From a virus, in the IMG/VR virus record IMGVR_UViG_3300046697_000153, positions 1-20,716 of that record: 20,716 bases of DNA; one strand, written 5' to 3'. Shown piece by piece: positions 216 to 16,728 of the stretch (positions are counted from its first letter, which is position 1; each line of letters starts with the position of its first letter). The position numbers and the translations under genes are program-made. The notes below the pieces were generated by a model, which was given only the letters and a program-made list of their open reading frames with translations, made no database searches and was not told the origin of the DNA.

Positions 216-227
216 TTGTTTCACCTC

Positions 228-428: not shown

Positions 429-431
429 TTT

Positions 432-1730: not shown

Positions 1731-1731
1731 C

Positions 1732-2111: not shown

Positions 2112-2123
2112 GACTAGAGAACC

Positions 2124-3155: not shown

Positions 3156-3214
3156 CGAATGTGTTATGTTAATTCCTCCTTTTAAGATTTGGTTCCGATA
3201 GGAAACATTTGATT

Positions 3215-3510: not shown

Positions 3511-3550
3511 GCTGAGAGTCTACTAATCGAATCACGCTCCCTTAGAGTTA

Positions 3551-3562
3551 AGATATATAAAA
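3551..3562 (-). promoter_or_regulatory. Archaeal TATA-like promoter
   Basis: On the minus strand the sequence reads TTTTATATATCT, close to the archaeal TATA consensus. The predicted transcription start is near 3530, just before the Cys-rich gene at 3510. The 79-nt gap 3511-3589 holds nothing else. It probably drives the unit running through the glycosidase and terminase genes. Confidence 0.5.
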
Positions 3563-3589
3563 GTCATGTAAGATTTAGCGTGAAGCACC

Positions 3590-4084: not shown

Positions 4085-4154
4085 AAACTCCCCTGAGCAG
4101 TTCGTTATTCCAAATGTGGCGGGGATTAATGTATCTGCAAACCTTGTTACTCTA

Positions 4155-5144: not shown

Positions 5145-5261
5145 TTTTATTCCTTGATTCTAAAAGGCAAAGCGGTCGCCGGTAACTAAACCAAACCGGA
5201 GATGAAAACAGTCTGGTTTCTTCCGAGGTAGTAACTCATTGGTGAAAAAATGGGTTTTCCT

Positions 5262-5843
5262 TTATTTAATCGCGTCACCGGCGATTTCCGCGCCTTTCTT
5301 TTCCAGATGGCAGCGCCGCTCTCTCCACACTCGCTCTGTCCTGAGGTAGCCAGTTCTTTCGAGGGTGGCTACTCGATAATAAAACGTGGGAAATCTATCT
5401 TTGCCGGCATTTACGGCAGCACTAATCCATGGTTCTGAATACCCTATTTTAATCGCTATTTTAGAATACTGTGGCTTCCCTTTCAAGAGCCAATACTTGT
5501 AAACCGCGTTCTCGACTTCAATTTGGTCAACATCCTCTCGTTGCGAGAGTTCTGTTAATCTCATCTCTTGAGCGGTTACTCTATCGACATCATACACGCG
5601 AACCTTGAGCAACCCTTCGTTGCCTATCAGTTCACGTTCCGCCCTCCATCGCCGTTCCCCATTGATGATCTCGTAGTGGCTGTTGTCACTTGGGCGCACG
5701 ACGATTTCTTCCATGAGATCGATCGATTTGATAGATTCTGCTAGTTCCTTCAATCGTTCTTGATTGAAGGTTTTTCTTGGATTGTCTTCAGATGGTTTAA
5801 TCTGATCAATCCTTACTTCCTTCAGTTCGTATTTTGTTGTCAT
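5262..5843 (-). CDS. ParB/Srx-like protein
   Basis: A 193-residue protein with an N-terminal ParB-type domain. Residues about 9-25 contain the SEDNPRKTF box and the later INGERRWRAERELIG matches the GERR(Y/W)RA motif of ParB and related nucleotide-binding or nuclease proteins. A predicted helix-turn-helix follows (YSKIAIKIGYSEPWISAAVN). A short Arg/Lys-rich tail replaces the usual dimerisation domain, so it is shorter than chromosomal ParB (about 280). The start is ATG 5841-5843 behind GGGAGGTCCAGGAAAC. In-frame ATGs further upstream overlap the preceding gene and lack support. No parA is visible, so the role may be regulation or DNA modification support rather than partition. Confidence 0.82.
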   Translation of the reverse strand: MTTKYELKEVRIDQIKPSEDNPRKTFNQERLKELAESIKSIDLMEEIVVRPSDNSHYEIINGERRWRAERELIGNEGLLKVRVYDVDRVTAQEMRLTELSQREDVDQIEVENAVYKYWLLKGKPQYSKIAIKIGYSEPWISAAVNAGKDRFPTFYYRVATLERTGYLRTERVWRERRCHLEKKGAEIAGDAIK

Positions 5844-5865
5844 GTTTCCTGGACCTCCCATCTTC

Positions 5866-6273
5866 TTACTCCTTAGATTCCCATTGGAACCACTTTTCTG
5901 CATCATCCTGATACAGAATCCCCCGCTTAATCTGTCGAGGGATTTCTTTGTATGCTTCGGATTCCCAACCTCTAACTCTCATGTGCGCCGGATTTACACA
6001 GTTGCGCTTTCCACAAACCATCGTAATCTGTTTCGATGGAAGGAAACCGTACTCTATTAGATACATTAGCCGCTTAACCAAAACGAGGTGCGGTTTGTTA
6101 TCCGTGACTTCACCCGGCGCTAGTCGAATAAATCGGTTGGTGTTTACCGGCTCCCGCAGAATCCAATCGTTAGGAGACGGACATCCGATCGCTCGGCTTT
6201 TTACCTTTTGGAGAATCTCTCTCCGATGTTCCGGGACTTCTGCCGCTTCCGACAGTTTTAATATTTTAGTCAC
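5866..6273 (-). CDS. HNH-type zinc-finger protein, putative endonuclease
   Basis: Encodes 135 residues. The core is MVCGKRNCVNPAHMRVRGW at about 85-103, matching the C-x4-C-x-N-P-x-H signature of HNH homing or phage endonucleases. The first histidine of the motif is not obvious, so activity is uncertain. The N-terminal part (SEAAEVPEHRREILQKVKS) may be a DNA-binding helix pair. The start is GTG (6271-6273), about 27 nt downstream of a TATA-like box and with no ribosome site, which suggests a leaderless transcript. HNH proteins often sit near terminase genes and can assist packaging. It is the first gene of the leftward block. Confidence 0.7.
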   Translation of the reverse strand: MTKILKLSEAAEVPEHRREILQKVKSRAIGCPSPNDWILREPVNTNRFIRLAPGEVTDNKPHLVLVKRLMYLIEYGFLPSKQITMVCGKRNCVNPAHMRVRGWESEAYKEIPRQIKRGILYQDDAEKWFQWESKE

Positions 6274-6294
6274 ACTTTAAGATATGCATAATAA

Positions 6295-6306
6295 TACTTA
6301 AAAGTA
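6295..6306 (-). promoter_or_regulatory. TATA-like box of HNH gene
   Basis: The minus strand reads TACTTTTAAGTA, a perfect 12-bp palindrome apart from its centre, centred about 27 nt upstream of the GTG start at 6273. This spacing fits an archaeal TATA box driving a leaderless mRNA. Confidence 0.4.
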
Positions 6307-6310
6307 TCAC

Positions 6311-6328
6311 AAGTTACGCTAGTTACGC
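6311..6328 (+). promoter_or_regulatory. Operator-like tandem 9-bp repeat (site 1)
   Basis: The sequence is AAGTTACGC followed directly by TAGTTACGC, two 9-mers differing at one position. It abuts the rightward TATA box at 6330-6337, where TFB would bind, and lies just upstream of the leftward TATA box at 6295-6306. A protein bound here could control both directions. Confidence 0.55.
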
Positions 6329-6329
6329 T

Positions 6330-6337
6330 TTTATAAA
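6330..6337 (+). promoter_or_regulatory. TATA-like box, rightward
   Basis: TTTATAAA matches the archaeal TATA consensus. The predicted start near 6357-6362 would place the hairpin at 6341-6362 around the transcription start and leave a leader of about 50 nt before the micro-ORF at 6411. The box is symmetrical, so direction is inferred from context. Confidence 0.4.
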
Positions 6338-6340
6338 TCA

Positions 6341-6362
6341 CCCCGAACGAAAAAGCGTCGGG
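6341..6362. other. Hairpin in control region
   Basis: CCCGAACG and CGTCGGG can pair into a 7-bp stem with one bulged A and an AAAAAG loop. It is the most GC-rich stretch of the control region. No T-run follows directly on the plus strand, so a terminator role is not supported in that direction. It may be an RNA leader structure or a protein-binding palindrome. Confidence 0.35.
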
Positions 6363-6410
6363 TAGAATCATACTATAATCTAATCTTTAAAAAAAAGTAG
6401 GTGAGTCATC

Positions 6411-6500
6411 ATGTGCTGTATGTATATAAATACCTTTTACGTATCAGCAGTTGATAGGTTAAATCAATTTTTGAGAATCAGGAATAATATATTAGCGTAA
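6411..6500 (+). CDS. Possible 29-aa micro-ORF
   Basis: ATG at 6411 is preceded by GTAGGTGAGTCATC, a good ribosome site at normal spacing. The frame encodes MCCMYINTFYVSAVDRLNQF then LRIRNNILA. Its stop overlaps the second operator-like site, and its coding sequence contains a TATA-like box (6421-6431). It has no recognisable family. It could be a real regulatory peptide, a leader peptide, or chance. Confidence 0.3.
   Translation: MCCMYINTFYVSAVDRLNQFLRIRNNILA
6421..6431 (+). promoter_or_regulatory. TATA-like box inside micro-ORF
   Basis: TGTATATAAAT is a strong TATA-like string. It would direct transcription from about 6450, ahead of the second operator-like site at 6495-6512. Position and direction are uncertain. 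Confidence 0.25.
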
Positions 6501-6512
6501 CTTGCGTAAGTT
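6495..6512 (-). promoter_or_regulatory. Operator-like tandem 9-bp repeat (site 2)
   Basis: The minus strand reads AACTTACGC then AAGTTACGC, two adjacent 9-mers, one identical to the first 9-mer of site 1. The site is in the opposite orientation, about 165 bp away. Two copies of the same unusual arrangement in one intergenic region argue for binding by one regulator, possibly with looping. Confidence 0.5.
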
Positions 6513-6560
6513 GTAAACCTTTCACTATACCTAGTCGAACTTCTGCGTGGTGTTTCAGCT

Positions 6561-6662
6561 ATGATTATGGCGAAACAGTTGATTTCTACTGAGGAAGTCC
6601 CTGAAAAGCTGTCGTGGGTGGCACGAATTAAGCTATTTCTAGGATTTAAAGGTCGTGAGTAA
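6561..6662 (+). CDS. Possible 33-aa basic micro-ORF
   Basis: ATG at 6561 opens a frame for MIMAKQLISTEEVPEKLSWV then ARIKLFLGFKGRE. A weak ribosome site (TGGTG) lies 8 nt upstream. The peptide has a plausible amphipathic basic C-terminal helix. Protein-like composition is the only support; no family is recognised. Confidence 0.3.
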   Translation: MIMAKQLISTEEVPEKLSWVARIKLFLGFKGRE

Positions 6663-6702
6663 CTTCTTTTTAATGCCTAACGCATTTACCCCTACTTTGT
6701 AG

Positions 6703-6731
6703 GTAGTATAACCACCTTGCGAGCATACTAC
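6703..6731. repeat. 7-bp inverted repeat upstream of rightward promoter
   Basis: GTAGTAT and ATACTAC are separated by 15 nt, immediately upstream of the TATA-like box at 6746. The position fits an activator or repressor site. It could also be a weak hairpin from an upstream transcript. Confidence 0.3.
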
Positions 6732-6745
6732 TAGTCCTATAATAA

Positions 6746-6754
6746 CTATAAATA
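6746..6754 (+). promoter_or_regulatory. TATA-like box of small-gene operon
   Basis: CTATAAATA lies 48 nt before the first gene's ATG at 6802. The predicted start near 6776-6782 leaves a short leader that contains the ribosome site GAGGTGA (6789-6795). It probably drives the rightward block of small genes. Confidence 0.5.
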
Positions 6755-6801
6755 CTATTGGTGCTATTATAATCTTGTAGGAAACTACGAGGTGAAACAA
6801 A

Positions 6802-7011
6802 ATGTCAGCAACATCTAAATGGATTGCCTTTGTAAATTTCTCAGAGGCGTTTATGTATTACGTAATAATGCCAGCAGTCGTTATCGGCCTTATGGTAGTG
6901 TTTATACCAATCGGAATAATAGCATTAATCGTTTGGTTAATACTCGTTTATCGTCGTCGGGCCGGTGGAGCTGCACGAAAGGCGCGGGATCAAGAACTGT
7001 TGAAAGGCTAA
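6802..7011 (+). CDS. Small membrane protein, 69 aa
   Basis: First gene of the rightward operon, with ribosome site GAGGTGAAACAAA. Residues 18-51 are almost entirely hydrophobic (YYVIMPAVVIGLMVVFIPIG onward), enough for one long span or two tight spans. They are followed by a strongly basic tail (YRRRAGGAARKARDQELLKG) that should lie in the cytoplasm. No family is recognised. A role at the host membrane early in infection is inferred from position only. Confidence 0.65.
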   Translation: MSATSKWIAFVNFSEAFMYYVIMPAVVIGLMVVFIPIGIIALIVWLILVYRRRAGGAARKARDQELLKG

Positions 7012-7031
7012 GGTTAGAAGGAGTTAAAACA

Positions 7032-7169
7032 GTGACTGAATATAAATCAATTAATGTCAAAGATAAAACACATGCACGGTTGCGAGAACTAGGAAGGATG
7101 AATGAGTCGTTTGACGACCTCATAAATCGTATAATCGAAGGATACATCGCGTTCTATCAGGGTGAGTAA
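7032..7169 (+). CDS. Ribbon-helix-helix protein, VapB/DUF7557-like
   Basis: A 45-residue protein from GTG 7032-7034 behind AGAAGGAGTTAAAACA. It reads as a strand KSINVKDKTHARL, then a helix ELGRMNESFDDL and a helix INRIIEGYIAFY. This is the pattern of archaeal VapB-type antitoxins and DUF7557 proteins (strand, then 'LxELGxxxESFDDLIxRII'). No toxin is adjacent, so it more likely acts as a stand-alone DNA-binding regulator. The frame is open further upstream, but that part overlaps the preceding gene in another frame and lacks a ribosome site. It is a candidate binder of the nearby operator-like repeats. Confidence 0.7.
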   Translation: MTEYKSINVKDKTHARLRELGRMNESFDDLINRIIEGYIAFYQGE

Positions 7170-7181
7170 AGAGGGTGAAAA

Positions 7182-7322
7182 ATGATAATTGCCGAAGACA
7201 TACAAGAAATGTTAGACGAGTGTGGAGCTATAGAAACTGCAGTTAAAAAACTTAAAGACAGATTACTTGAAGAATACGCCGAGATGGTGGAGGTCGCAGA
7301 CGCGGCTAATCCTGAGTGGTAA
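7182..7322 (+). CDS. Small acidic helical protein, 46 aa
   Basis: ATG at 7182 follows GAGGGTGAAAA, the standard ribosome site of this operon. The protein (MIIAEDIQEMLDECGAIETA then VKKLKDRLLEEYAEMVEV and on to PEW) is almost wholly helical and acidic, with heptad-like spacing of Leu, Ile and Val that suggests a short coiled coil or dimer. No family is recognised. It follows the ribbon-helix-helix gene by 12 nt. Confidence 0.6.
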   Translation: MIIAEDIQEMLDECGAIETAVKKLKDRLLEEYAEMVEVADAANPEW

Positions 7323-7372
7323 TAGATAGGTAATGATAAAGTAACAAAAGTAACGAAAAAGGAGGCTGAAAA

Positions 7373-7507
7373 ATGACTTGCTATAAAAAGATGTGTGGCG
7401 TTCCTAGCTCATATAAATACAAAAAGGAGTGCGTGATGGGTGTTTCAAAAGATGAAAAGATAGCGTTTCGTGATTGTGGGTATTGTCCAGTTAAACGTTT
7501 GATTTGA
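7373..7507 (+). CDS. Small Cys-rich protein, 44 aa
   Basis: The ribosome site AAAGGAGGCTGAAAA precedes ATG 7373. Cys residues at 3, 8, 20, 35 and 38, with a final CGYC knuckle, suggest a metal-binding fold. The rest is Lys-rich. The 50-nt gap before it holds a tandem AAGTAACAA/AAGTAACGA. No family is recognised. Confidence 0.6.
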   Translation: MTCYKKMCGVPSSYKYKKECVMGVSKDEKIAFRDCGYCPVKRLI

Positions 7508-7527
7508 ATAAGAAAAGGAGGTGAAAA

Positions 7528-7692
7528 ATGACTACTATATTAACACTAAACGGGGAAACTGAAAGACTTTGGCGCGCAATTAAAAAGAATTGGCGTATTA
7601 GTGAACCAGATAGCACTGATGATTATATCCTACTTACACTATTCGGAATGTGGATTGATGAATTTGAGCCAGGTATTGAAAAAAGAGGGTGA
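7528..7692 (+). CDS. Small protein, 54 aa
   Basis: The ribosome site AAAAGGAGGTGAAAA is one of the best in the window. The protein starts MTTILTLNGETERLWRAIKK, contains Trp-rich patches and an acidic middle (SEPDSTDDYILL), and ends EFEPGIEKRG. Its stop codon TGA lies in the ribosome site of the next gene (GAGGGTGAAAA). No family or fold is recognised. Confidence 0.6.
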   Translation: MTTILTLNGETERLWRAIKKNWRISEPDSTDDYILLTLFGMWIDEFEPGIEKRG

Positions 7693-7695
7693 AAA

Positions 7696-7875
7696 ATGAC
7701 TGAAATTTATACGGTTCTCTGTGGGTGTTGTGAGTCTTCCGAAATTGAAAAGATTGAGGTGGGAACCTACAAATTCCTGTGCCGGAAGAATGGGGATGAT
7801 AAAACACCTGAAGAGGTTGGCTATGAAGATAAAAACCACCGTTTTGGCTGCGATGATTTTGAGTTCAACTTGTGA
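7696..7875 (+). CDS. Small Cys-rich protein, 59 aa
   Basis: Starts 3 nt after the preceding stop, with its ribosome site inside that gene's end. The N-terminus MTEIYTVLCGCCESSEIEKI carries a C-x-C-C cluster. Further Cys lie at 29 (KFLCRKNG) and 52 (FGCDDFEF), and a His at 48. The arrangement suggests a small zinc- or iron-binding domain, but no family is recognised. Confidence 0.6.
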   Translation: MTEIYTVLCGCCESSEIEKIEVGTYKFLCRKNGDDKTPEEVGYEDKNHRFGCDDFEFNL

Positions 7876-7885
7876 GGGCTGAAAA

Positions 7886-7972
7886 ATGATTGATGCAAAA
7901 ACGGTCGACTTGATTATTTTATACCTTCTTATGATGTGCGTAGCATTCGTTTTCTTGGCGTTGGTACGGTAG
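7886..7972 (+). CDS. Single-span membrane microprotein, 28 aa
   Basis: ATG 7886 follows GAGGGCTGAAAA, the operon's usual signal. The protein MIDAKTVDLIILYLLMMCVA then FVFLALVR is one membrane span with almost no other content. It is likely real because of its ribosome site and regular placement in the array. The role is unknown. Confidence 0.55.
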   Translation: MIDAKTVDLIILYLLMMCVAFVFLALVR

Positions 7973-7999
7973 TAGGCGGGGCTGAAAAGAGGGTGAAAA

Positions 8000-8185
8000 A
8001 TGACTGATAGTAGATGCAAATGTCTTAAAAATGTACCGTGGAGAGAGAGCTGTATTTATTGCGACCCCGACTTACGACAGTTTACACTAGAGGGGTATAA
8101 TGAAAGTATTGGTATAAAGAAGAAAAATGAGGTGAAAAGAAGAAATGAAAGCAACCTGTTGTGTGCAAGGACACTTAATAGATGA
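8000..8185 (+). CDS. Small Cys-rich basic protein, 61 aa
   Basis: GAGGGTGAAAA precedes ATG 8000. The N-terminal third (MTDSRCKCLKNVPWRESCIY then CDPDL) has a C-x-C plus C-x2-C pattern fitting one zinc site. The C-terminal part is Lys/Arg-rich and overlaps the next gene by 41 nt. Possibly nucleic-acid binding; no family is recognised. Confidence 0.55.
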   Translation: MTDSRCKCLKNVPWRESCIYCDPDLRQFTLEGYNESIGIKKKNEVKRRNESNLLCARTLNR

Positions 8186-8321
8186 GATGTTGGCGTGCGA
8201 TTGTGCCTCTCCGAGCGATTGTGAACATCAGCCGATTTGTGCAGCGATGAAGGCGCTCGAGGCGGCTGGTGTTAAGGAGAAAGGAATGTCCAAAAAGAAA
8301 GGAGGAACCACAAAGAAATGA
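8145..8321 (+). CDS. Small Cys-rich protein, 58 aa, overlapping
   Basis: ATG 8145 follows GAGGTGAAAAGAAGAA and lies inside the preceding gene in another frame. Cys at 5, 6, 18, 20, 26 and 32 form a dense cluster (ACDCASPSDCEHQPICAAM). The tail is Lys-rich. Its stop overlaps the next ATG as ATGA, so the two are coupled. The Cys cluster and coupling support it as a true gene. No family is recognised. Confidence 0.55.
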   Translation: MKATCCVQGHLIDEMLACDCASPSDCEHQPICAAMKALEAAGVKEKGMSKKKGGTTKK

Positions 8322-8638
8322 GTCTCAAGGATGAATTGAATACAGAATGTTTCGCATTTGAAAAACTAGCGGATGAACTTGAATCAGTCCTGGTGGATTT
8401 GCATAATGGGATTGATCCGACGCGCACACGCATACGGTTAAAAATCGTCTGCGCTGAACTACATCTGCAAAGAGAGCGCGTTGACCGGATGGTGAAAGAC
8501 GCAGAGGGCGCCGCACCCGCACCGGAACCAAAGATATCAACATTTAGCAGTGTGTTCCACGGGCCATTTCACGGGGAGGCCCAAGTCGATTTTTCAAAGC
8601 AGTTTGTTTACGATTCTGGTAAGGAGGATGATAGATAG
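8318..8638 (+). CDS. Unknown protein, 106 aa
   Basis: Starts by ATGA overlap and has AAAGGAGGAACCACAAAGAA upstream. Residues 1-63 form two long helices (FEKLADELESVLVDLHNG and RIRLKIVCAELHLQRERVDR) likely to pair as a helical hairpin. A Pro/Ala linker (GAAPAPEPK) leads to a Phe/His-containing tail (FHGPFHGEAQVDFSKQF). Its stop is directly followed by the protease ATG. It may be a partner of that protease, but nothing in the sequence proves it. Confidence 0.6.
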   Translation: MSLKDELNTECFAFEKLADELESVLVDLHNGIDPTRTRIRLKIVCAELHLQRERVDRMVKDAEGAAPAPEPKISTFSSVFHGPFHGEAQVDFSKQFVYDSGKEDDR

Positions 8639-9781
8639 ATGATAACCGTTACTAAGAAAGGTCACGGCCTGGGGTGGAAACCTCAGATGCCGTCACATTT
8701 AGATTACAGATACGAAGATCGCGTGAAGTTGATGGCACCTGAAACGTTGGTGCCAACGGACATAACCAATTTAGTCAGCACAGTCAAGAATCAAGGACAA
8801 CTAGGCGCGTGCGTAGCACACGGAACCACATCAGCCTTTGAGGCGTGTCAGATTAAGGCAGGAATCGAGGCAGTTCTAGGCTGCAGGCTACTGGTCTATC
8901 GCGATGCGAGGATTATTGGCGGCGATTATCCTGGAGATAATGGCTGTAATATCAGAGATGGTATTCACGCAACTGTTCAGGATGGCGTAGCACCTGAAAC
9001 TGATTGGGCTTATGATATAAGCCAGTTCGATACCGCACCGCCAGCGAAAGCAGTCAGCGACGCAGTGAAAGCCGAGTCTACGAGCTACTACTTGCTTGAC
9101 GGCGCCTCAACAACTCAGATGATTGCGAACATAGACAACTGCCTCTGCGTGACGAAGCTTCCAGTGGTTTACGGGATGCCAGTCTACCAGCAATACGAAG
9201 ACGTCGGCAGCGATGGGATCATTGATATGCCAAGCGGCGCATCAATCGGCGGTCACTGCAATGCGTTGTTTGGCGTAACTGGCTTTACTGACGCCGACTA
9301 CTACATCACCCTCAACTCTTGGGGGACAGGATGGGGCAAAGGATACGCCAAATTCAGTGGCGGCTTCGGTTTGATCCCGCGACCGTACATCCGGCAATAC
9401 GCGAGCGACAGTTGGACTATCGCGATGGAGAGTCAGCTTGGGCCGACACCCACCCCCACACCACCTACACCGACTAAGAAAGCGACCCAGATTACCATAA
9501 CCGCTGACAAGTCGTGTTACGGGGTCAATAAACCGGCGACGTTTATTGCCACATTAAAAAGTGGGACTGCTGCGCCTATTGCGGAGCCTATAAAGATTTA
9601 CCACACTCTTGGAGGTGCAACGTATCAGGACAAAGCAGCGTATTCAACGCTGACGTACCAAACGTCCTTCACGTCGCCAGGGATTCGCACCTACTATGCT
9701 TCGTTTGCAGGCAATGCTAGTTACGCGGCATCAGTTAGTTCAGCGTTACCGATCTGCGTATGCAGTGAAATAACCAAGTAG
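8639..9781 (+). CDS. Papain-family (C1) cysteine protease with Ig-like tail
   Basis: A 380-residue protein. The C1 peptidase core carries all catalytic residues: Gln52 and Cys58 in VKNQGQLGACVAHGT (six residues apart as in papain), His206 in IGGHCNALFGV, and Asn226 in TLNSWGTGWGKGYAKF. No signal peptide and no long propeptide is visible. A Thr/Pro linker (TPTPTPPTPTKK, about 270-281) leads to an Ig-like domain (282-380) ending ICVCSEITK, about 60% identical by eye to the tail of the glycosidase-like protein at 2124-3155. AAGGAGGATGATAGATAG precedes the ATG. It may digest host S-layer or envelope protein at entry or lysis, or process virion proteins. Confidence 0.88.
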   Translation: MITVTKKGHGLGWKPQMPSHLDYRYEDRVKLMAPETLVPTDITNLVSTVKNQGQLGACVAHGTTSAFEACQIKAGIEAVLGCRLLVYRDARIIGGDYPGDNGCNIRDGIHATVQDGVAPETDWAYDISQFDTAPPAKAVSDAVKAESTSYYLLDGASTTQMIANIDNCLCVTKLPVVYGMPVYQQYEDVGSDGIIDMPSGASIGGHCNALFGVTGFTDADYYITLNSWGTGWGKGYAKFSGGFGLIPRPYIRQYASDSWTIAMESQLGPTPTPTPPTPTKKATQITITADKSCYGVNKPATFIATLKSGTAAPIAEPIKIYHTLGGATYQDKAAYSTLTYQTSFTSPGIRTYYASFAGNASYAASVSSALPICVCSEITK

Positions 9782-9789
9782 TTTAAAAG
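9782..9789 (+). promoter_or_regulatory. TATA-like box before YkgJ-type gene
   Basis: TTTAAAAG starts two bases after the protease stop. The predicted start near 9808-9815 would give a short leader to ATG 9834, which lacks a ribosome site. Modest support. Confidence 0.3.
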
Positions 9790-9819
9790 GCGCGAGCGGT
9801 CGGGAGCCCGTTTGCGTTC

Positions 9820-9833
9820 CCTTTCTTTTTATT
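9820..9833 (+). terminator. Pyrimidine/T-rich tract, possible archaeal terminator
   Basis: CCCTTTCTTTTTAT lies after the protease gene and a short CGGG-AG-CCCG hairpin. Archaeal RNA polymerase can terminate at such T-rich tracts. It also immediately precedes the next ATG, so it may act only partially. Confidence 0.3.
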
Positions 9834-10220
9834 ATGGTAGAATACTCCGCTTGTGAAAATTGCTTCGGTGTCTGTTGTGCCGGTTTCTCAACGCCCTGCG
9901 CGTTAGGAACCGATGAGGTAGCACGGATCGCAGAATACCTAGAGATTCCCCTGGATGTCTTCAAGGAACTTTATGTTGTGAATGTTGAGATGTCTGAAGC
10001 GAAGCCGTGGACCTTCAAACAAGGAAAACCTTGCAGGTTTTGGACTCAAGGAAGATGCGGAATACACGCTGTTAAGCCTGAAGGGTGCGCCCTCTGGAAA
10101 CCTTACGGTAATAACGGAGAAGCATGCGGTAAGCATTTCAGAAAAGAGAGTGAAGAAGACAAGGCGTTTCCGTGGTGGGATTTGTTAAACCCAAAATGGA
10201 AACCGTGTCCTCCTCGATGA
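9834..10220 (+). CDS. YkgJ-family cysteine cluster protein
   Basis: A 128-residue protein with the family signature C-x2-C-x3-CC at residues 7-15 (SACENCFGVCCAG), then Cys22, Cys67 and Cys75 in PCRFWTQGRCGIH, and GCALWKPYG with Cys85, then Cys98. YkgJ-type proteins chelate zinc or an iron-sulfur cluster; their biochemical role is largely unsettled. It is the last gene of the rightward block and converges on the leftward gene ending at 10243, 22 nt away. The ATG lacks a ribosome site and may be read from its own promoter. Such genes are common in methanogens, so it may be host-derived. Confidence 0.8.
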   Translation: MVEYSACENCFGVCCAGFSTPCALGTDEVARIAEYLEIPLDVFKELYVVNVEMSEAKPWTFKQGKPCRFWTQGRCGIHAVKPEGCALWKPYGNNGEACGKHFRKESEEDKAFPWWDLLNPKWKPCPPR

Positions 10221-10242
10221 CTGCTGTCTCTGTTGCACTGCG

Positions 10243-10632
10243 TTAACGTTTCACTTTAGCATAATAAGACTGCGCTCGCCAATCTTCACAGAGAACATCC
10301 TTGATGCTCTGATAACGCCTGCGTAGGCAGTTGCGCGGGCGAGCGTGATACACGTCGTCTATTCTTGGACTGATCTCAGCGAGATCGTCCACGATTGTAA
10401 TAACCAACTGATGATTATGGTCTTTATAAGGATGATAAAGAAGATGCTCGTATTCTGACGTGAACTTGGTTTCGCTGCACTCCTGGACTTTCTTAGCTAG
10501 TTCGTGGCCGACCATCGCTTGCTTGATTCTTGCCAGTTTGATATTGATCCTGAAGCACTTGATTGCTTCTATAGGGCAAGACGAGACGGGTTTGCAGGGT
10601 TTGTAAGCCATCGGTCTGTTTAGTTTTGTCAC
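10243..10632 (-). CDS. Unknown basic protein, 122-129 aa
   Basis: The frame encodes 129 residues from a GTG at 10630-10632, or 122 from ATG 10609-10611. The GTG lies within AGGTGA, right behind a terminator T-run, so the internal ATG may be the true start. The protein is basic with Cys near the N-terminus (PCKPVSSCPIEAIKC), a strand HQLVITIVDDLAEI, and a C-terminal basic helix. No family is recognised. It is the last gene of the right-hand leftward block and lies behind an intrinsic-type terminator, so it probably has lower or separate expression. Confidence 0.5.
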   Translation of the reverse strand: MTKLNRPMAYKPCKPVSSCPIEAIKCFRINIKLARIKQAMVGHELAKKVQECSETKFTSEYEHLLYHPYKDHNHQLVITIVDDLAEISPRIDDVYHARPRNCLRRRYQSIKDVLCEDWRAQSYYAKVKR

Positions 10633-10633
10633 C

Positions 10634-10669
10634 TAAAAAAATAAAAAAGTAGACTATTTTTTAGTCTAC
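10634..10669 (-). terminator. Intrinsic-type terminator
   Basis: On the minus strand GTAGACTA and TAGTCTAC form a perfect 8-bp stem with an AAAAA loop. It is followed at once by TTTTTTATTTTTTT. The stem overlaps the stop codon of the two-TM gene. This is an unusually clean hairpin plus T-run. Confidence 0.8.
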
Positions 10670-10879
10670 TACTGGCACTTCCATCGTCGTGAAGAGCGTT
10701 ACGAGTCCTGCCAATACTGTTGCTATAAAGCCAACGAACGCAGCTTGCACCGTTGTTAAGACGAAATATTGACCTACTGAATTGACTGTAAACACTAAGA
10801 ATGTCAGAACTACGACTATCGCTGGAAGCCAGCCCATTCCTGTAGCTGGATCAAATACGATCTGTGTCTTGGTTGCCAT
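10661..10879 (-). CDS. Two-span membrane protein, holin-like
   Basis: A 72-residue protein starting at ATG 10877-10879, behind the ideal site GGAGGTGATAAAA; an in-frame ATG five codons earlier is part of that leader. Hydrophobic spans lie at about 18-38 (LPAIVVVLTFLVFTVNSVG) and 46-66 (AAFVGFIATVLAGLVTLF), joined by a short loop. Size and topology fit small viral holins that permeabilise the membrane at lysis, but there is no family-level match. It is bounded by terminators on both sides and shares its leader sequence with the histone-fold gene. Confidence 0.6.
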   Translation of the reverse strand: MATKTQIVFDPATGMGWLPAIVVVLTFLVFTVNSVGQYFVLTTVQAAFVGFIATVLAGLVTLFTTMEVPVVD

Positions 10880-10900
10880 TTTTATCACCTCCATTTAAAT
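10876..10900 (-). repeat. 25-nt duplicated leader, copy 1
   Basis: This segment matches 11108-11132 at 24 of 25 positions. It contains ATTTAAATGGAGGTGATAAA and the start ATGG. Both copies act as the ribosome-binding leader of small genes. Selection for high translation or a recent local duplication could explain it. Confidence 0.7.
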
Positions 10901-10923
10901 AAAAAAGAAGGGCGTTACCCCTC
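10899..10923 (-). terminator. Intrinsic-type terminator after histone-fold gene
   Basis: On the minus strand GAGGGG and CCCTTC pair around a TAACG loop (one G-U pair) and are followed by TTTTTTATT. The stem overlaps the stop codon. The stem is weaker than the one at 10649-10669, so it may attenuate rather than stop transcription. Confidence 0.55.
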
Positions 10924-11111
10924 TAAGCTGTAGGTACATCTTCAGGTTCTACCCGCGTGCGTCCTGCGGCTTGCATTGCTGCAACTGCAGCCTGGGCGAG
11001 TGCAACCTGCTTGTTGATTAACACCTCGATCGCAGCTTTAGCAGCTGCTTCCGAGACTTGTGTCGCGCCAGCGGTCTTGCAGGCTACGCGAAAGGCTTCT
11101 TCACTAACCAT
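10923..11111 (-). CDS. Archaeal-type histone-fold protein
   Basis: A 62-residue protein from ATG 11109-11111 behind GGAGGTGATAAAG. It aligns without gaps to archaeal histones such as HMfB from about residue 8: AGATQVSEAAAKAAIEVL against the AGAERVSDDA region, a central helix ending in AAVAAMQAAGRTRVEPEDV against the ARHAGRKTIKAEDI region. Conserved are the AGA-xx-VS turn, AGR, and the acid pair ED. It ends at PTA, just into helix 3, so it is shorter than most archaeal histones (66-70). The Arg at the first DNA-contact loop is Gln and the Thr in the second is Arg. It likely binds or compacts viral or host DNA, or is packaged. It lies between the transporter and the two-TM gene. Confidence 0.8.
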   Translation of the reverse strand: MVSEEAFRVACKTAGATQVSEAAAKAAIEVLINKQVALAQAAVAAMQAAGRTRVEPEDVPTA

Positions 11112-11132
11112 CTTTATCACCTCCATTTAAAT
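11108..11132 (-). repeat. 25-nt duplicated leader, copy 2
   Basis: Partner of 10876-10900, differing only at the base before the start codon. Here it overlaps the region just after the transporter stop. Confidence 0.7.
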
Positions 11133-11133
11133 C

Positions 11134-11631
11134 TCACATTGAAACTCCTAAGACTAGCCGCAGTCCGTATGCAAGCAAAAATGCTATTGCGGCAATCCCA
11201 AATGATAATGTGATTCGCTTCGGAAACTCTTTCCAAAAATACCTATCTTCAGGCTTCGTGATATATATTGTGAATCCGACGACGATGGTAAACGCAATAG
11301 CTAGTGTGCAGGTGAGTGCCGCTACGTAGCTCTGCAGCAATAAAAAGGGAATAATAAGGGCCATCGCGATCCCGAAATACAGGAGGCCGGTTCGTATGGA
11401 TGCGCCTGCAGGACTTTTAACGTTTTTATCGAAGACTTCTTCAGTCTCTTTTTCGAGGTATTCGCTTGCCGCCATGCTCAACGATCCAGCTAGGCCTGTA
11501 ATGAGTGCTGCTAAGGCTACAAGTCTAGCGTTTTGCAGGGCAATAGTCAAGCCTGCTATCGCTGCAGTAACCTCAACGAGGGAGTCATTAACACCCATCG
11601 TCATCGCGCCTAAATAGCGAGTGTCAGTCAT
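11134..11631 (-). CDS. VIT1/CCC1-family iron/manganese transporter
   Basis: A 165-residue membrane protein with five predicted spans (about 15-33, 36-57, 78-98, 102-124, 138-162), the number usual for the VIT family. The N-terminal signature is intact: GVNDSLVEVTAAIAGLTIAL with Asp16 in the first span, and GLAGSLSMAASEYLEKETEE with Met53 in the second. Equivalent Asp and Met residues line the metal path in VIT1. The cytosolic loop between spans 2 and 3 is short. Family members export Fe(II) or Mn(II) from the cytosol. The start overlaps the DUF1003 stop by 8 nt, so the two are coupled. A metal exporter is unexpected in a viral late operon and suggests capture from a host. Confidence 0.85.
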   Translation of the reverse strand: MTDTRYLGAMTMGVNDSLVEVTAAIAGLTIALQNARLVALAALITGLAGSLSMAASEYLEKETEEVFDKNVKSPAGASIRTGLLYFGIAMALIIPFLLLQSYVAALTCTLAIAFTIVVGFTIYITKPEDRYFWKEFPKRITLSFGIAAIAFLLAYGLRLVLGVSM

Positions 11632-12058
11632 GTTTGCACAACTCGAGTAACAGTTTCGTCTGCTTTAACAGCTCATCATCCTGCGCGGACAAGTGCTTGC
11701 CAGTCTCTTCTATGTCATGGTAGGTCTTCTGCGTGGTCTTGAACTGTTCGTCTGCCTGCATCTCTGACTTTCGGCCGAGGATGTTTTGACCGACCATGAT
11801 GATCGGCAGGATGGTAAGCGAAAGGAACGAAGATGTGAGCCACATTATGATCCAATACAACGTGTTCGGGAGCCATCCAAGTATCGCACCTAAACCGATA
11901 AAACAAATTACCGTGAACAGGTAGGCCGTCCACATAGAACCTACGTGCTGCGTAAGCCAAACAGCCAATTTCGCGTTAAAGCCTATCTGCTCGCTTGTGA
12001 AACGGTCATTTGAGTTAACGGGTTTGTGCGGATGCAGTTTATGTTTATAAAGTGCCAT
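11624..12058 (-). CDS. DUF1003 membrane protein
   Basis: A 144-residue protein. After a basic, His-containing N-terminus come two spans, about 42-62 (SMWTAYLFTVICFIGLGAIL) and 67-89 (LYWIIMWLTSSFLSLTILPI). Then the DUF1003 hallmark IIMVGQNILGRKSEMQADEQF and a coiled-coil tail to residue 142. The family is widespread in bacteria and archaea and of unknown function. AGGGGAACCA precedes the ATG. Its overlap with the VIT transporter gene suggests they act together at the membrane. Confidence 0.75.
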   Translation of the reverse strand: MALYKHKLHPHKPVNSNDRFTSEQIGFNAKLAVWLTQHVGSMWTAYLFTVICFIGLGAILGWLPNTLYWIIMWLTSSFLSLTILPIIMVGQNILGRKSEMQADEQFKTTQKTYHDIEETGKHLSAQDDELLKQTKLLLELCKHD

Positions 12059-12066
12059 TGGTTCCC

Positions 12067-12576
12067 CTATCTAACGAAATGTGCATACCCGAACAGGATA
12101 GATAATGCGACCGTGACAACGAATGAAACCACGAGTCCGATAACATATTGCTGGTTCCTTATCTTGTCCTTTCGTGTATCGTCTTTAAGTGCGTCAATCC
12201 GAACGGTGCATGCGTCTTTTACTTCGAGGATGAGTTCTCGCAGCGTTGTCATTCGGTTGCTCTGCTCAGTCATTACGTCTTTTAAAGTGGCAACGTCATC
12301 GATCAATCCGATGATCTGCTCTCCCCTTTTAGCTTGGCCAACTTCCAGTTTACCAGTGCGCTTTTCAATGCCCTCTGAACGGTCCCACCGATAACTGCCG
12401 TTCAGCTGTCGCCGGTCAGTAGGAACCGCCCGGTCGAGGTCATATAGCGCTTGATCGCAAGCGTTCTTAACCTTCTCTCGCGCAGTCTCGGCAGCTGAAA
12501 TCATCTCTTCTTTAGCTACTTTGGCCGCAGCAAGCAGTTCCTCGGCTGCCGTCGTTTCACTTTTTGTTGGGGTCAT
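12067..12576 (-). CDS. Coiled-coil protein with C-terminal membrane span
   Basis: A 169-residue protein. Residues 8-50 and 76-138 are helical with heptad-like patterns (AAEELLAAAKVAKEEMISAA; GLIDDVATLKDVMTEQSNRM). A basic stretch (DDTRKDKIRNQQ) precedes a membrane span at about 145-165. The soluble part is probably cytoplasmic. Its N-terminal Ala/Glu-rich helix resembles the upstream 79-residue protein, which it overlaps by 20 nt. No family is recognised. A membrane-tethered rod could link the virion or packaging to the envelope; this is inference. Confidence 0.6.
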   Translation of the reverse strand: MTPTKSETTAAEELLAAAKVAKEEMISAAETAREKVKNACDQALYDLDRAVPTDRRQLNGSYRWDRSEGIEKRTGKLEVGQAKRGEQIIGLIDDVATLKDVMTEQSNRMTTLRELILEVKDACTVRIDALKDDTRKDKIRNQQYVIGLVVSFVVTVALSILFGYAHFVR

Positions 12577-12796
12577 CTCGTGATCTCTCTAGCTTTAAGC
12601 GTTCAGCTTCAGCTACGGCCGCCTCATGAAGCAGCTCTTTCGCTCTCTCGACTGCTTCCGCAATAAGCAGCATGGCGCGAGTAGCTGCATCATCTATTAA
12701 GTCTCGCGCCGACGCTGCAGCAGATTCAATCAAACCTTCTGCCTTTATTCGAGCTTCTTCGTGTTCTTGTTCCTGTTCTAGTTTATCTTCGGTCAT
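12557..12796 (-). CDS. Ala/Glu-rich coiled-coil protein, 79 aa
   Basis: GGCGGTGAAAAA precedes the ATG at 12794-12796. The whole protein is a single charged helix (for example EEARIKAEGLIESAAASARD and AVERAKELLHEAAVAEAERL) with a heptad-like repeat. It likely forms a coiled coil with itself or with the downstream coiled-coil protein. No family is recognised. Confidence 0.6.
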   Translation of the reverse strand: MTEDKLEQEQEHEEARIKAEGLIESAAASARDLIDDAATRAMLLIAEAVERAKELLHEAAVAEAERLKLERSRDDPNKK

Positions 12797-12800
12797 TTTT

Positions 12801-13073
12801 TCACCGCCCTATACGCTTGTGCTTTAGATGATATCCGCGTCTATACGGCATGACCCTTTTGATCTTATATCCGCGCTTGTGGACGTAAGCTTTATGCTTA
12901 ATTCCGGTTCTATATGGCGCAATTCGTTTAATATGATATCCACGGCGATGTACATAACTTTTATGGGGGTGGTGCGCCTTCGGTCGTACTCCTCGAGCAC
13001 CGGGTCTAGCTGCGTGACTGCCTGCGTGAGGATGGCGAATACCCTTTTTATGAACATAAACACCGCGAGGGAT
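12801..13073 (-). CDS. Basic His/Arg/Tyr-rich repeat protein, non-standard start
   Basis: This frame encodes about 90 residues dominated by Lys, Arg, His, Tyr and Gly. Its C-terminal half is built of related units: YVHRRGYHIKRIAPYRTG, then YVHKRGYKIKRVMPYRRG, then YHLKHKR. Similar very basic repeat proteins occur among archaeal virus virion proteins and may bind DNA. There is no ATG, GTG or TTG. AGGAGG (13083-13088) stands 9 nt before an ATC at 13071-13073. The frame stays open and basic (IKRKRWFRRRYK) back to 13124, so the start could be further upstream. Another frame here (12824-13063) has an ATG but no repeats and no ribosome site. The stop lies in the ribosome site of the next gene. Confidence 0.6.
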   Translation of the reverse strand: MPRGVYVHKKGIRHPHAGSHAARPGARGVRPKAHHPHKSYVHRRGYHIKRIAPYRTGIKHKAYVHKRGYKIKRVMPYRRGYHLKHKRIGR

Positions 13074-13098
13074 TTTATAACGCCTCCTAAACCATCGT

Positions 13099-14667
13099 TT
13101 ACGCTTGATACGAGTTGTAAAGGTTTAGCGAAAGGCCGCTAAGAGTGGCCCCGTTTAGGATAATGTCCTTTGAGCCGGTTCCTCCGGATGCGTCATACAT
13201 ATCGTTACCAACCGCTCGCGTGTCTTGCACTGCGTTACTTGAAATGCCGATTCCATATTTCGTGTATGGCGCGTTAGCAGTCCACCCATAGTTTCCAATT
13301 AAAGACGTAGATCTGATACCTGTACCTATCAAGTTTATACACGACGGAGAACCAGTGGCAGCCATTCCGCATTGTCCGATCTCGTTGTTACTGATCATGT
13401 TATACCATCCTACAATGGCACCTGCTGCAGTCCCGTCAACCAGTATACCGTGCAACCCGCAATACGTTACGAGGTTTCCTGAAAACTTGTTGGCTTGAGC
13501 ACCACTTGTGGCTGTCGCAGCAAGGTGTATCCCGCAGTCGCCACAGTTTGAGATCTTGTTGTCAGCAACGATTCCGAGACTGCCCTGATAATAGATACCG
13601 TCGGCGTATGCGTAGGTTATTGTGCAGTCCTTGATTACTACATTGCTCGTTGCGCCACTTGTCACGTCAATGCCGTAATCCTGCGCCCCGGTGATGGTTA
13701 AGTTGAGGAGTTGCACGCTACCAGTCGTGACAAGAACGCCTTGATTGCCAAGTCCGGTAGTGACCGGCGTTGTGGTGTAGATACTTGACGTACTACCACC
13801 ACCAAAGAGTGCCATGTCGCGGATCGTCGCACCCGCATAACCAGCTACTATCATCGGAGTTCCTGCTGGAGCGCGGCCCGACAAGGTGATCGTGGTTTGT
13901 GATCCGCAGCCGATGAGGTTCGCACCCATCACTGGACTGATACTGTCCGAGATGATGCAGTCGCCCTCACTGAGCATGACCGTTCCACCACATGCCGGTA
14001 GTACTGAAAAGGCTTCGTTTATGATCTCGTCTGCATCTATAAATCCTGCAGATGCGGGAATCTGAAAGTCGGCATTTTGCTTCATAGTGGAACGAGCATT
14101 AGGCATCGCCACGACTACCGAGTTGCTTTGCGTCGCCTGTACGCCGACGAAGTTTCGTAGGTCAACGATATCCGTGTCCACAATCGTCGTATGTCCGTTA
14201 ACCATATTGACCTGAGCGAGGGGGAGTTGCCATCTGACGCCCTCTGTTTGAACTGGTTGCGGCGGCATTGGGTTGCCGGATCGCGGGTCAGTTGATGGAT
14301 ACTGTAGACCGTTAGTTCCTTGTACTACTATCGCGGTGATCCCTGCGTTTAATCCCCACTTGCATTCGAGCGCTATTAGGTCAGCGCGAATGCCGGACGC
14401 CAGGTTCGCGTTAAGCGTAAGCGTGTTCGTCGCATTATTTTGATAATAATGCCCCTGGATGGCCGCTGCACCCGTGTCGATATCCACTGTCAATGGCAGC
14501 GTGCCTGCAGTTACTTCCAACTCCCCCAGGTTATCGTTGAAGCTTACCGACATAACGCCGGTTCCTATCAAGTATCGGCTGAATTGAGCCCATTGGTTCT
14601 CGGTCAATGTGGCACCGAAAGGGTTAGTATCTCCTGGCTTTCTGAACGGATACGAAGTTTCGACCAT
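13099..14667 (-). CDS. Beta-helix receptor-binding / tail spike protein
   Basis: A 522-residue protein. Residues about 15-170 resemble the virion-attachment domain of many phage baseplate and fibre proteins (PFGATLTENQWAQFSRYLIG; ADLIALECKWGLNAGITAIV; VVQGTNG). From about 210 onward, repeated short strands with Asn and Gly turns (TIRDMALFGGG, NLTITGAQDYGIDVTSG, VIKDCTITYAYADGIYYQG, NKISNCGDCGIHLAA) form a right-handed parallel beta-helix of the pectate-lyase type, common in spikes that bind or cleave glycans. No catalytic triad can be assigned. CAGGAGAAAACACAA precedes the ATG. Confidence 0.75.
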   Translation of the reverse strand: MVETSYPFRKPGDTNPFGATLTENQWAQFSRYLIGTGVMSVSFNDNLGELEVTAGTLPLTVDIDTGAAAIQGHYYQNNATNTLTLNANLASGIRADLIALECKWGLNAGITAIVVQGTNGLQYPSTDPRSGNPMPPQPVQTEGVRWQLPLAQVNMVNGHTTIVDTDIVDLRNFVGVQATQSNSVVVAMPNARSTMKQNADFQIPASAGFIDADEIINEAFSVLPACGGTVMLSEGDCIISDSISPVMGANLIGCGSQTTITLSGRAPAGTPMIVAGYAGATIRDMALFGGGSTSSIYTTTPVTTGLGNQGVLVTTGSVQLLNLTITGAQDYGIDVTSGATSNVVIKDCTITYAYADGIYYQGSLGIVADNKISNCGDCGIHLAATATSGAQANKFSGNLVTYCGLHGILVDGTAAGAIVGWYNMISNNEIGQCGMAATGSPSCINLIGTGIRSTSLIGNYGWTANAPYTKYGIGISSNAVQDTRAVGNDMYDASGGTGSKDIILNGATLSGLSLNLYNSYQA

Positions 14668-14682
14668 TTGTGTTTTCTCCTG

Positions 14683-15201
14683 TTACGCAACTTTTCTGGC
14701 TATCGGCATCTTCTTATGATCCATTAATGCGACTGTGAGTCCTGCTGCTTGCGGAACGGGTACTGGCAATACCGGCGTGAGCGAGACGTCAGGCGGTTCG
14801 TACCCTGCTGCAGTCTGCGCGATTGTAGGCAGTGGGTTCTTTGCACCCCAATCGACTGACAGTGCATTAGACCATTTGGTAGTCCTCCAAGCCGGAGTAG
14901 TTGTGACGCTGGCGGCGCTGGCGGGGGTTGTAGTAGTAGTACTTAGGGGGGCAGTTGTTGACGTCTTTGTTGTCGTTGCCGCAATCGACTTCTGGATCGC
15001 TGCGAAGACATCGTTCTCAGCATTGCCGCCGCAACTCGTGACGTGCGAGCCGTCGCAAAGCACCGCGCAGGGATAGCACTGGCAGGCCTGGGACATATCA
15101 ACAGTGTATTTGATTTGGGCGTTATTGAGCATTGATTCTAAGTTCGCGCAATGAGGACATCCTGACAAGGTTATTATCGTAGGTGTACAAGCTTGTGCCA
15201 T
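14683..15201 (-). CDS. Glutaredoxin-like virion-operon protein with Thr-rich linker
   Basis: A 172-residue protein from ATG 15199-15201 behind GAGGTAATTGAAA. Residues 8-75 match a glutaredoxin fold: a strand then the redox motif SGCPHCANLE (Cys15, Cys18), a second strand KYTVDMSQ, then YPCAVLCDGSHVTSCGG, which corresponds to the cis-Pro strand and the glycine-rich turn of glutaredoxins. Several additional Cys lie nearby. Residues about 84-115 are a Thr/Ser/Ala-rich linker, and the rest (KWSNALSVDWGAKNPLPTIA on) is an unknown Pro-rich domain. It sits directly between tail genes. It may exchange disulfides in virion proteins or at the host surface. Confidence 0.7.
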   Translation of the reverse strand: MAQACTPTIITLSGCPHCANLESMLNNAQIKYTVDMSQACQCYPCAVLCDGSHVTSCGGNAENDVFAAIQKSIAATTTKTSTTAPLSTTTTTPASAASVTTTPAWRTTKWSNALSVDWGAKNPLPTIAQTAAGYEPPDVSLTPVLPVPVPQAAGLTVALMDHKKMPIARKVA

Positions 15202-15212
15202 TTTCAATTACC

Positions 15213-16250
15213 TCATACGAAGCAGACGCTATAACTTCTTTTCTCAGCCGTGTCGCTTCCGACCGAGAATGCGAAATCACCGTTCTTGTCCGGCCAAATC
15301 TTTCCAAGCGACCACGTTTTTTTTGCATTGCTCGTCCAAATTTCAAGCTGGCCTGTATATGGTTTACCGTGTATCCAGTTCTCGTTATTATCCACCCATC
15401 CGGCGCGACCAGTGATTTGCACTTTAAATTCAATGTGCTGTGAAACGTCACTAGCTGATGATCCCACGAATGCAATCGAAATGTGCTTGCAGGGACACTG
15501 AATGACTGCTTTCGTTGCCGCTGTTGTTGCCGCCGCTGTTGCTGTAGCCCCAGCAGTTCCACCAGTTGCCCCTGTTTTTGTTGCTCCGTAATGACTGATT
15601 AACTGTTGCGCTAGTGACACAATACTCGATGATGAAGCACTATAACCCCCCCAAAAACAAATCGTGTCGCATCCAGTCGAATCAACGACGTTTATATACG
15701 TCTGAGCGCCGACGCCTTGCATCCAGTTACCGATAAGGATTCCGAGGTGTCCCGCGCCAGCTGATCTGGACCAGCCGATTGATTGGCTCGGGTCAACGTA
15801 ATTGTCGCTGTTGTCGTAAGATTCAATATAATCCCAATGCCCTTTTCCACCGCCCGTCGGGTGATCCCACGGGTCGGCGTACATATCTGCCTGACTATTT
15901 CCAACAATGCCGCCGTAATTAACATACGTGCAATAGTTCTGAACGGTGGAAACTACAGAGCCGCCGCAACCCTCACCTGCAATACAGTTCCAACCGGCGC
16001 TCGCAAGAGCTTGGAAGTATCCTGCATACGGACCACCGGCAGCGCCTGGTTGACACACCGCTGCGCTGCCATCATTGAACGCATTGAATGTGGCTGTAGG
16101 GATTCCTGCGTTGTGTATGGCACTTGCAGTACCAGCAGCCGTAGTACTACCATCCCAGTCCCAGACTAACCCGGCTTCCGCAAATCCTACTGATGCCAAC
16201 CAACTGAGGTTATCTAACGAACCAAAGTGCGCGCAAAAGCGTTTTCCCAT
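15213..16250 (-). CDS. Glycosidase-like protein, paralogue of the 2124-3155 protein
   Basis: A 345-residue protein. Residues 1-222 align with the catalytic-type domain of the protein at 2124-3155: AGEGCGG with Glu93, YVNYGG, HPTGGGKGHWDYIESYD with Glu143, LGILIGNWM, and TICFWGGY. The two shared glutamates are candidate acid/base and nucleophile residues of a TIM-barrel hydrolase. An Ala/Thr/Gly-rich linker (about 225-247) leads to a beta-rich C-terminal domain (IQCPCKHISIAFVGSSASDV on to YSVCFV), different from the Ig-like tail of its paralogue. GGTGGGG lies 8 nt before the ATG. Being inside the tail operon, it is likely a virion-bound enzyme or adhesin. Confidence 0.6.
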   Translation of the reverse strand: MGKRFCAHFGSLDNLSWLASVGFAEAGLVWDWDGSTTAAGTASAIHNAGIPTATFNAFNDGSAAVCQPGAAGGPYAGYFQALASAGWNCIAGEGCGGSVVSTVQNYCTYVNYGGIVGNSQADMYADPWDHPTGGGKGHWDYIESYDNSDNYVDPSQSIGWSRSAGAGHLGILIGNWMQGVGAQTYINVVDSTGCDTICFWGGYSASSSSIVSLAQQLISHYGATKTGATGGTAGATATAAATTAATKAVIQCPCKHISIAFVGSSASDVSQHIEFKVQITGRAGWVDNNENWIHGKPYTGQLEIWTSNAKKTWSLGKIWPDKNGDFAFSVGSDTAEKRSYSVCFV

Positions 16251-16721
16251 TTATAGTACCCCACCGATAATAACTGTCCACCCTCCCCACGCGCCGGTGC
16301 CGGATGCTGGATACCACATCCAACCTACTGCTCCGTCCATATCTCGCGCAAATATCCGAATGACGTCGGGTGATGCATTAGCGTCGTAGATAACGGTTGG
16401 GCCGCTAGATGCGGCTATTCCCATGCTTGCTACTGATGTCCATCCTGTGCCGTTAACGTTCTTTGTCATGCGTATTATATTATCCGTTCCAGTGTAAAAA
16501 AGCCAAAAAGTCCCGGTTCCGTTGCCGCACGCCCCTGGCGAAGTTCCCGGCAGTGCGTCAATCTGGTTCTGTTGGTTGGCTTGTGTCTCAAGAACCCCAC
16601 TTGAACCATTCACCGCTGCCGTGTTATTCAATGTGGCATTGATGGCACTAAGATTTGCACTGTGGTCGATTAGGTTCTGTGCCACGGCAGTTTTATAATC
16701 CGTATCGCTTGCGTTTAACAT
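16251..16721 (-). CDS. Small tail protein with beta-propeller-like repeats
   Basis: A 156-residue protein. The first 60 residues are helical and Asn/Gln-rich (LIDHSANLSAINATLNN), perhaps a trimeric stalk. The remainder has blade-like repeats (FWLFYTGTDNIIRMTKNVNG, then GWTSVASMG; VIRIFARDMDGAVGWMWYPA, then GAWGGWTVIIGG). These resemble PLL-like lectin or sialidase-type beta-propeller blades. Only about two blades are present, so assembly by oligomerisation would be needed. AGGAGAGTT precedes the ATG. A glycan-binding tail tip or fibre protein is likely. Confidence 0.5.
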   Translation of the reverse strand: MLNASDTDYKTAVAQNLIDHSANLSAINATLNNTAAVNGSSGVLETQANQQNQIDALPGTSPGACGNGTGTFWLFYTGTDNIIRMTKNVNGTGWTSVASMGIAASSGPTVIYDANASPDVIRIFARDMDGAVGWMWYPASGTGAWGGWTVIIGGVL

Positions 16722-16728
16722 AACTCTC

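Follow-up and report, generated by a model that had tools for sequence, protein, structure and literature searches.

The VIT/CCC1 family of metal transporters includes EgVIT1 and PfVIT, which are Fe2+/H+ antiporters. VIT proteins are dimers whose metal site involves Asp43 and Met80 in EgVIT1 and Asp59 and Met96 in the plant protein MtVTL8; Glu72 of EgVIT1 is replaced by Gly88 in MtVTL8, which is functional and, without the metal-binding domain, rescues a yeast ccc1 mutant (PMC10794610). VIT1 has also been found among the transporters of nucleocytoplasmic large DNA viruses (NCLDV) (PMC7162819). Here we describe a VIT gene in a 20,716-nucleotide stretch of viral DNA, positions 1 to 20,716 of the IMG/VR record IMGVR_UViG_3300046697_000153 (the window hereafter), where it forms a pair with a gene for a DUF1003 protein. 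We propose, at what we judge to be an even chance, that a head-tailed virus of methanogens captured a VIT and DUF1003 metal-transport module from its host lineage and kept it as a translationally coupled cassette in the tail operon, exporting Fe2+ or Mn2+. The two genes are:

Positions 11134-11631, minus strand: VIT/CCC1-family transporter of 165 amino acids with an ATG start (PF01988, AlphaFold2 model, Foldseek, homologue in virus record G003).
Positions 11624-12058, minus strand: DUF1003 two-span membrane protein of 144 amino acids (PF06210).

The 165-amino-acid open reading frame (ORF) is a real member of the VIT/CCC1 family that keeps the transport residues. The family identity, five spans and signature claimed in the initial annotation are borne out by a match to Pfam VIT1 (PF01988; E=1.4e-10; 41.8 bits, cut-off 28.1), by the five long helices of an AlphaFold2 model (mean pLDDT 89.9, with 48 aligned VIT domains as input) and by the MGVNDS...SMAASEYL motif that the protein carries. 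A sequence search of the PDB with the viral VIT protein gave no match; Foldseek placed EgVIT1 (6iu3 and 6iu4) at the top, as the sole PDB matches with probability 1.00 (query TM-score 0.64-0.67). Only profile positions 2-60 of PF01988 align to the viral VIT, because the cytoplasmic metal-binding domain, which comes next in classical VITs, is missing. The model agrees: helix 1 begins at residue 4, leaving no N-terminal extension, and helix 2 (35-67) leads to helix 3 (74-98) without the three-helix metal-binding domain that classical VITs have at this place in the cytoplasm.

Residues D16, M53, E20 and S56 are invariant in 82 sequences (80 from cellular relatives, the other 2 being the viral VITs); E57 is kept in 74 of the 80. 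Assigned by spacing within the aligned motifs, D16 and M53 correspond to Asp43 and Met80 of EgVIT1; the loss of transport residues, raised beforehand as grounds for doubting the gene, is thus not what closer alignment reveals. The relay position Glu72 of EgVIT1 is Thr45 in the viral VIT, as it is in most of its close cellular kin. Since Glu72 is absent from active MtVTL8, it is not needed for family membership, and since MtVTL8 rescues ccc1 without the metal-binding domain, the absence of that domain alone is no argument against transport.

The partner protein scores above the cut-off for PF06210 (E=3.7e-7, 30.7 bits versus 27.4), which confirms the annotated DUF1003 membrane gene. Its overlap with VIT measures 8 bp, with stop and start interleaved as ATGACTGA. 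The structure model of the DUF1003 protein was weak (pLDDT 64.5, two aligned sequences) and was not used. The DUF1003-VIT pair is present in three further records (G001, G002 and G003), all with VIT proteins above the PF01988 cut-off. G001 and G002 are essentially identical, and G003 (55 kb) is a clearly different virus lineage that has the interleaved ATGACTGA in common with the window virus. In all three the pair sits at the same position in the tail operon, with the same overlap. Capsid, portal, tail and terminase genes accompany it in G002 and G003; G003 has its own terminase and its own HK97-type capsid and portal, while the portal of G002 is of the Mu type and its capsid belongs to another family. 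On the same strand upstream of VIT lie genes for a Gp37-like tail protein, a Dit-like protein and a beta-helix spike. The viral late operon of the initial annotation is therefore upheld as a tail operon; we infer late expression from operon position only.

The pair is far better conserved between the two lineages than its surroundings. Identity between window and G003 proteins is 83% for DUF1003 and 76% for VIT but lower for the terminase (57%), the Gp37-like tail protein (46%) and the beta-helix spike (35%). At third positions the two paired genes differ by 0.50 and 0.40, the other structural genes by 0.65-0.70. The DNA homology between the two viruses coincides with the pair, and we refer to this block as the cassette:

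Positions 11126-12053, minus strand: block of DNA homology with G003, 76% identity by blastn, coinciding with the DUF1003-VIT pair.

The cassette is under purifying selection: the NG86 method gives nonsynonymous (dN) and synonymous (dS) rates between the lineages of 0.165 and 1.457 for VIT and of 0.107 and 1.231 for DUF1003, and dN/dS for the pair is ~0.1 by NG86 and 0.15-0.25 by YN00. The cassette and its operon are set among the following genes:

Positions 8639-9781, plus strand, facing the operon: papain-family (C1) protease with an immunoglobulin-like (Ig-like) domain (PF00112, E=1.9e-10).
Positions 10661-10894, minus strand: 77-amino-acid protein with two spans that bounds the cassette on the right; only its size and topology resemble a holin.
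Positions 10923-11126, minus strand: 67-amino-acid histone-fold-like protein (phmmer), directly downstream of VIT.
Positions 12067-12576, minus strand: coiled-coil protein anchored in the membrane at its C terminus, bounding the cassette on the left.
Positions 13099-14667, minus strand: beta-helix tail spike or fibre, upstream in the same operon (PF13229, E=1.8e-13; PHROG tail spike and virion protein matches).
Positions 16729-18306, minus strand: Gp37-like minor tail protein (PF14594, E=2.8e-15; phrog_538).

A related virus (L108/L115), whose Gp37 is 68% identical, has an empty site: there the coiled-coil gene directly adjoins the two-span holin-like gene, and the genes for DUF1003, VIT and the 67-amino-acid protein are all missing. 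The coiled-coil, two-span and papain-like protease genes persist without the cassette, from which we argue that it is accessory rather than a core exit machine. One fragmentary related record (L100/L102) breaks off inside a DUF1003 gene that is identical to the window copy. Read most simply, these comparisons mean that the two genes travel and are retained together. The same leader, ATTTAAATGGAGGTGATAAA, lies ahead of the histone-like and holin-like genes (10883-10900 and 11110-11128), which suggests duplication at the insertion site.

The cellular kin of the viral genes point to one archaeal order. G002 encodes a Ku protein (L008 3286-4077, minus strand; PF02735, E=2e-43), and with this protein as query in the phylum of Methanoregula, 7 genomes stood out, at 45-47% identity. 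These are all the sampled genomes of the order of genome G257, the closest sampled kin and the probable host order. As mcrA is found in 5 of the 7, this order is methanogenic; a methanogen with Ku would presumably belong to the Methanocellales. DUF1003 proteins of the order (L222, L223) are 52% identical over the full viral length, with DNA identity of 77% over a 95-base core, and DUF1003 kin occur in five of its seven genomes. A sample of 295 genomes from the phylum includes this order, and outside the order it gave a DUF1003 match in only one genome, a weaker one. The host-order copies differ from the viral protein in being longer at both ends (a frame of 211-249 amino acids) and, unlike the viral gene, those in L202/L203 have no adjoining VIT gene. 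Among the DNA matches of the order to the window is also a terminase (TerL) gene (53% identity) in G230, a genome of the same order. The viral TerL ORF (432-1250; L004 19164-19979) comprises the ATPase half only, 271-272 amino acids in both lineages; the G230 relative has ATPase and nuclease in one 627-amino-acid frame, and no viral nuclease gene was found.

All seven genomes of the order have VITs of their own. In a phylogeny with cellular VITs, a check that had been proposed for this gene, a ferritin-VIT of the host order (L213, 47-51% identity) falls with the two viral VITs on one side of a branch with support 94/93, just below a strict threshold. Of the seven genomes, G277 alone yielded this closest ferritin-VIT; the VITs of the rest are classical or short and divergent. 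The best cellular homologue of the viral VIT is about 51% identical among those found, and 78 of the 80 best cellular relatives extend 90 or more residues further at the N terminus. The concentration of DUF1003 kin in the order, together with the ferritin-VIT kinship at 94/93, makes a host origin of both cassette genes likely, if not proven. The idea of an auxiliary gene thus gains, through methanogen-order kinship, on the side of host origin, and the earlier interpretation as a whole is partly supported. The virus itself probably infects a methanogenic archaeon, and the histone-like protein beside VIT points to an archaeal host; in phmmer comparisons with archaeal histones it matched HPhA at E=0.0009 and HMfA at 0.098. 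This protein is also encoded at L007 7380-7577 (minus strand), and a 65-amino-acid protein of G002 resembles it by eye only.

Other candidate sources, hosts and host signals were tried and set aside. The host order also has short VIT-like proteins (176-188 amino acids), whose very long branch led us to reject them as a source. Methanoregula (Methanomicrobiales), proposed as host by its high VIT matches, gave no DNA match in 199 genomes and no relative of the Gp37 tail protein in the 295 genomes of its phylum, and both are empty results that prove little. No tRNA genes for host assignment were found, and counts of Shine-Dalgarno motifs did not separate an archaeal from a bacterial host. Within 10202-10245 of the window, a fasciclin-like gene of four host-order genomes matches 36-44 bases at 94-100% identity, which may mark a site of recombination or attachment; the adjacent window bases 9836-10060 are missing from G001. 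The 36-base identity at 10202-10237 was rejected as a CRISPR spacer, as the same segment lies inside the fasciclin-like gene in four genomes.

These observations suggest the following mechanism. In the cytoplasmic membrane the viral VIT would assemble as a dimer of the VIT type, through whose D16/M53 site divalent metal (Fe2+ and perhaps Mn2+) would leave the cytoplasm, as in plant VTL proteins. The DUF1003 protein would be made together with VIT by translational coupling, as its partner or regulator, and both, judging by position, would be made alongside the tail genes. Export of Fe2+ (or Mn2+) would be the likeliest activity of the viral VIT. Its benefit could be to lower labile Fe2+ as the iron-rich enzymes of the methanogen fail or are degraded late in infection, sparing the cell mismetallation and damage until release. 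Such avoidance of Fe2+ overload and mismetallation in a dying cell is more plausible than a rationale of oxidative stress. That a stand-alone working metal exporter and DUF1003 make up a mobile two-gene unit which controls the iron or manganese content of the host is a somewhat bolder claim, and we hold it at a little under even confidence.

Several points weigh against the captured metal-export module. Iron transport by MbfA, a ferritin-VIT protein, has been reported to need the ferritin-like domain (PMC7762939), which the viral VIT lacks, and no ferritin-like protein was found among the 60 non-structural proteins of G002 and G003 scanned. The tree branch leading to the viral VITs is long, at about 2 changes per site, and function may have shifted along it. 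The oxidative-damage rationale is weak because the likely host is anaerobic. Finally, a survey of related genomes, which found the pair in G001-G003, found neither gene in L108/L115 or in 25 further related records, many of them fragments, and only two independent lineages carry the cassette.

That the locus is a host-virus chimera or cellular contamination, an objection anticipated from the start, is very improbable. The window is indeed a patchwork, unlike G002 to the left of base 8131: positions 1-423 are 99% identical to G212/G213 and 3612-5024 are 88% identical to G003. However, the arm at 8131-20716 is collinear with G002 at 99.5%, the pair recurs among tail and terminase genes in the diverged G003, and no cellular homologue comes closer than the ~51% given above among those found. 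As VIT lies within the long collinear segment, the objection leaves it untouched, and the VIT gene is truly viral rather than host contamination. At a finer grain, window positions 1-8130 form a mosaic in which short stretches (1-423, 2023-2441 and from 8131 onwards) are 97-99% identical to different co-occurring virus groups.

The remaining alternatives accept a viral gene and assign it other work. DUF1003 and VIT could have joined the lysis region as membrane proteins that dissipate or adjust a proton or ion gradient, with a holin-like or holin-timing role in cell exit and transport only incidental. The cassette does lie between the membrane-anchored coiled-coil protein and the two-span holin-like protein, near the facing papain-like protease, and a proton-coupled transporter could affect membrane potential; yet the empty-site relatives retain all three of these neighbours, which makes the exit genes independent of the cassette, such a role would not need conserved metal-site residues, and family searches identified no lysis protein. 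We consider it unlikely, though the most credible of these alternatives. Superinfection exclusion, in which the cassette alters the cell surface or membrane and metal transport is not the selected trait, would suit an accessory, exchangeable pair at a variable site by the receptor-binding spike in mosaic, co-occurring viruses. It too meets strongly conserved metal-site residues, no family evidence speaks for an exclusion function, and we rate it as clearly improbable. Hardly different in standing, and if anything a shade weaker, is a decoy or dominant-negative role, in which the viral VIT would enter mixed dimers with a host ferritin-VIT or VIT and alter iron export. VIT proteins being dimeric, the viral VIT corresponding to the membrane half of a host-type ferritin-VIT fusion minus its iron-oxidising domain, and the presence of VITs throughout the host order all favour such dimers; the pore residues, however, are intact rather than mutated, and the closest ferritin-VIT is confined to G277.

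Elsewhere in these genomes, the papain-family protease may serve as an envelope-degrading enzyme. A CxxCxxCC protein with a putative zinc- or iron-chelating domain (9834-10220, plus strand) is encoded near VIT and in relatives is not linked to the cassette. A 683-amino-acid head-region protein of G002 (L008 12757-14808, plus strand) combines, in one ORF, a UDG-superfamily match (E=1e-6) with an XkdF-type prohead-protease-like domain. Proteins of about 340 amino acids, some with Ig-like domains, form a repeated family near the tail genes, with several copies per genome (2124-3155 and 15213-16250; L007 6260-7375).

We found no precedent for a VIT in viruses of bacteria or archaea; giant viruses have them. 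PHROGs holds no family matching the viral, classical or ferritin-type VIT, and 50,697 phage records yielded no credible VIT, the sole match being a probable bacterial fragment. The 'Bacteriophage sp.' record MT839292, with a ferritin-VIT beside an amylase-like gene on an unverified 4.4-kb contig, was set aside as probably bacterial DNA. A strict motif scan of IMG/VR, which diverged VITs could escape, returned only this virus group. If the gene works, viruses of methanogens could alter cellular iron, the metal on which the enzymes of methanogenesis depend, and the conserved pairing offers a first handle on the role of DUF1003 proteins.

Among virus-encoded proteins, the VITs of giant viruses share the fold, as in the BFVD match from Chrysochromulina ericina virus (Megaviridae), but they belong to viruses of eukaryotes, are 12-13% identical and have no known DUF1003 pairing. 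Plant VTL proteins such as MtVTL8 resemble the viral VIT in having the VIT fold without the metal-binding domain and without Glu72, and in the equivalents of Asp59, Met96 and Glu100; the viral protein has no counterpart of Arg51, which in MtVTL8 forms a salt bridge with Glu100, and no close sequence kinship with this group is shown. EgVIT1, PfVIT and yeast Ccc1 have the five-helix fold and the equivalents of Asp43 and Met80 in common with it, and differ in their cytoplasmic metal-binding domain (helices 2-3) and in Glu72. Most similar is the VIT domain of the MbfA/ferritin-VIT group of bacteria and archaea (43-51% identity), with GxNDxxVE in the first helix and SMAxSEYL in the second as common motifs; the viral VIT lacks the N-terminal ferritin-like domain of this group and is set apart by four inserted residues and additional acidic ones following helix 2. 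The transporter family and the carriage of host transporters by viruses are already known; for this class of virus we found no precedent, and the loss of the domain and the partnership with DUF1003 are new.
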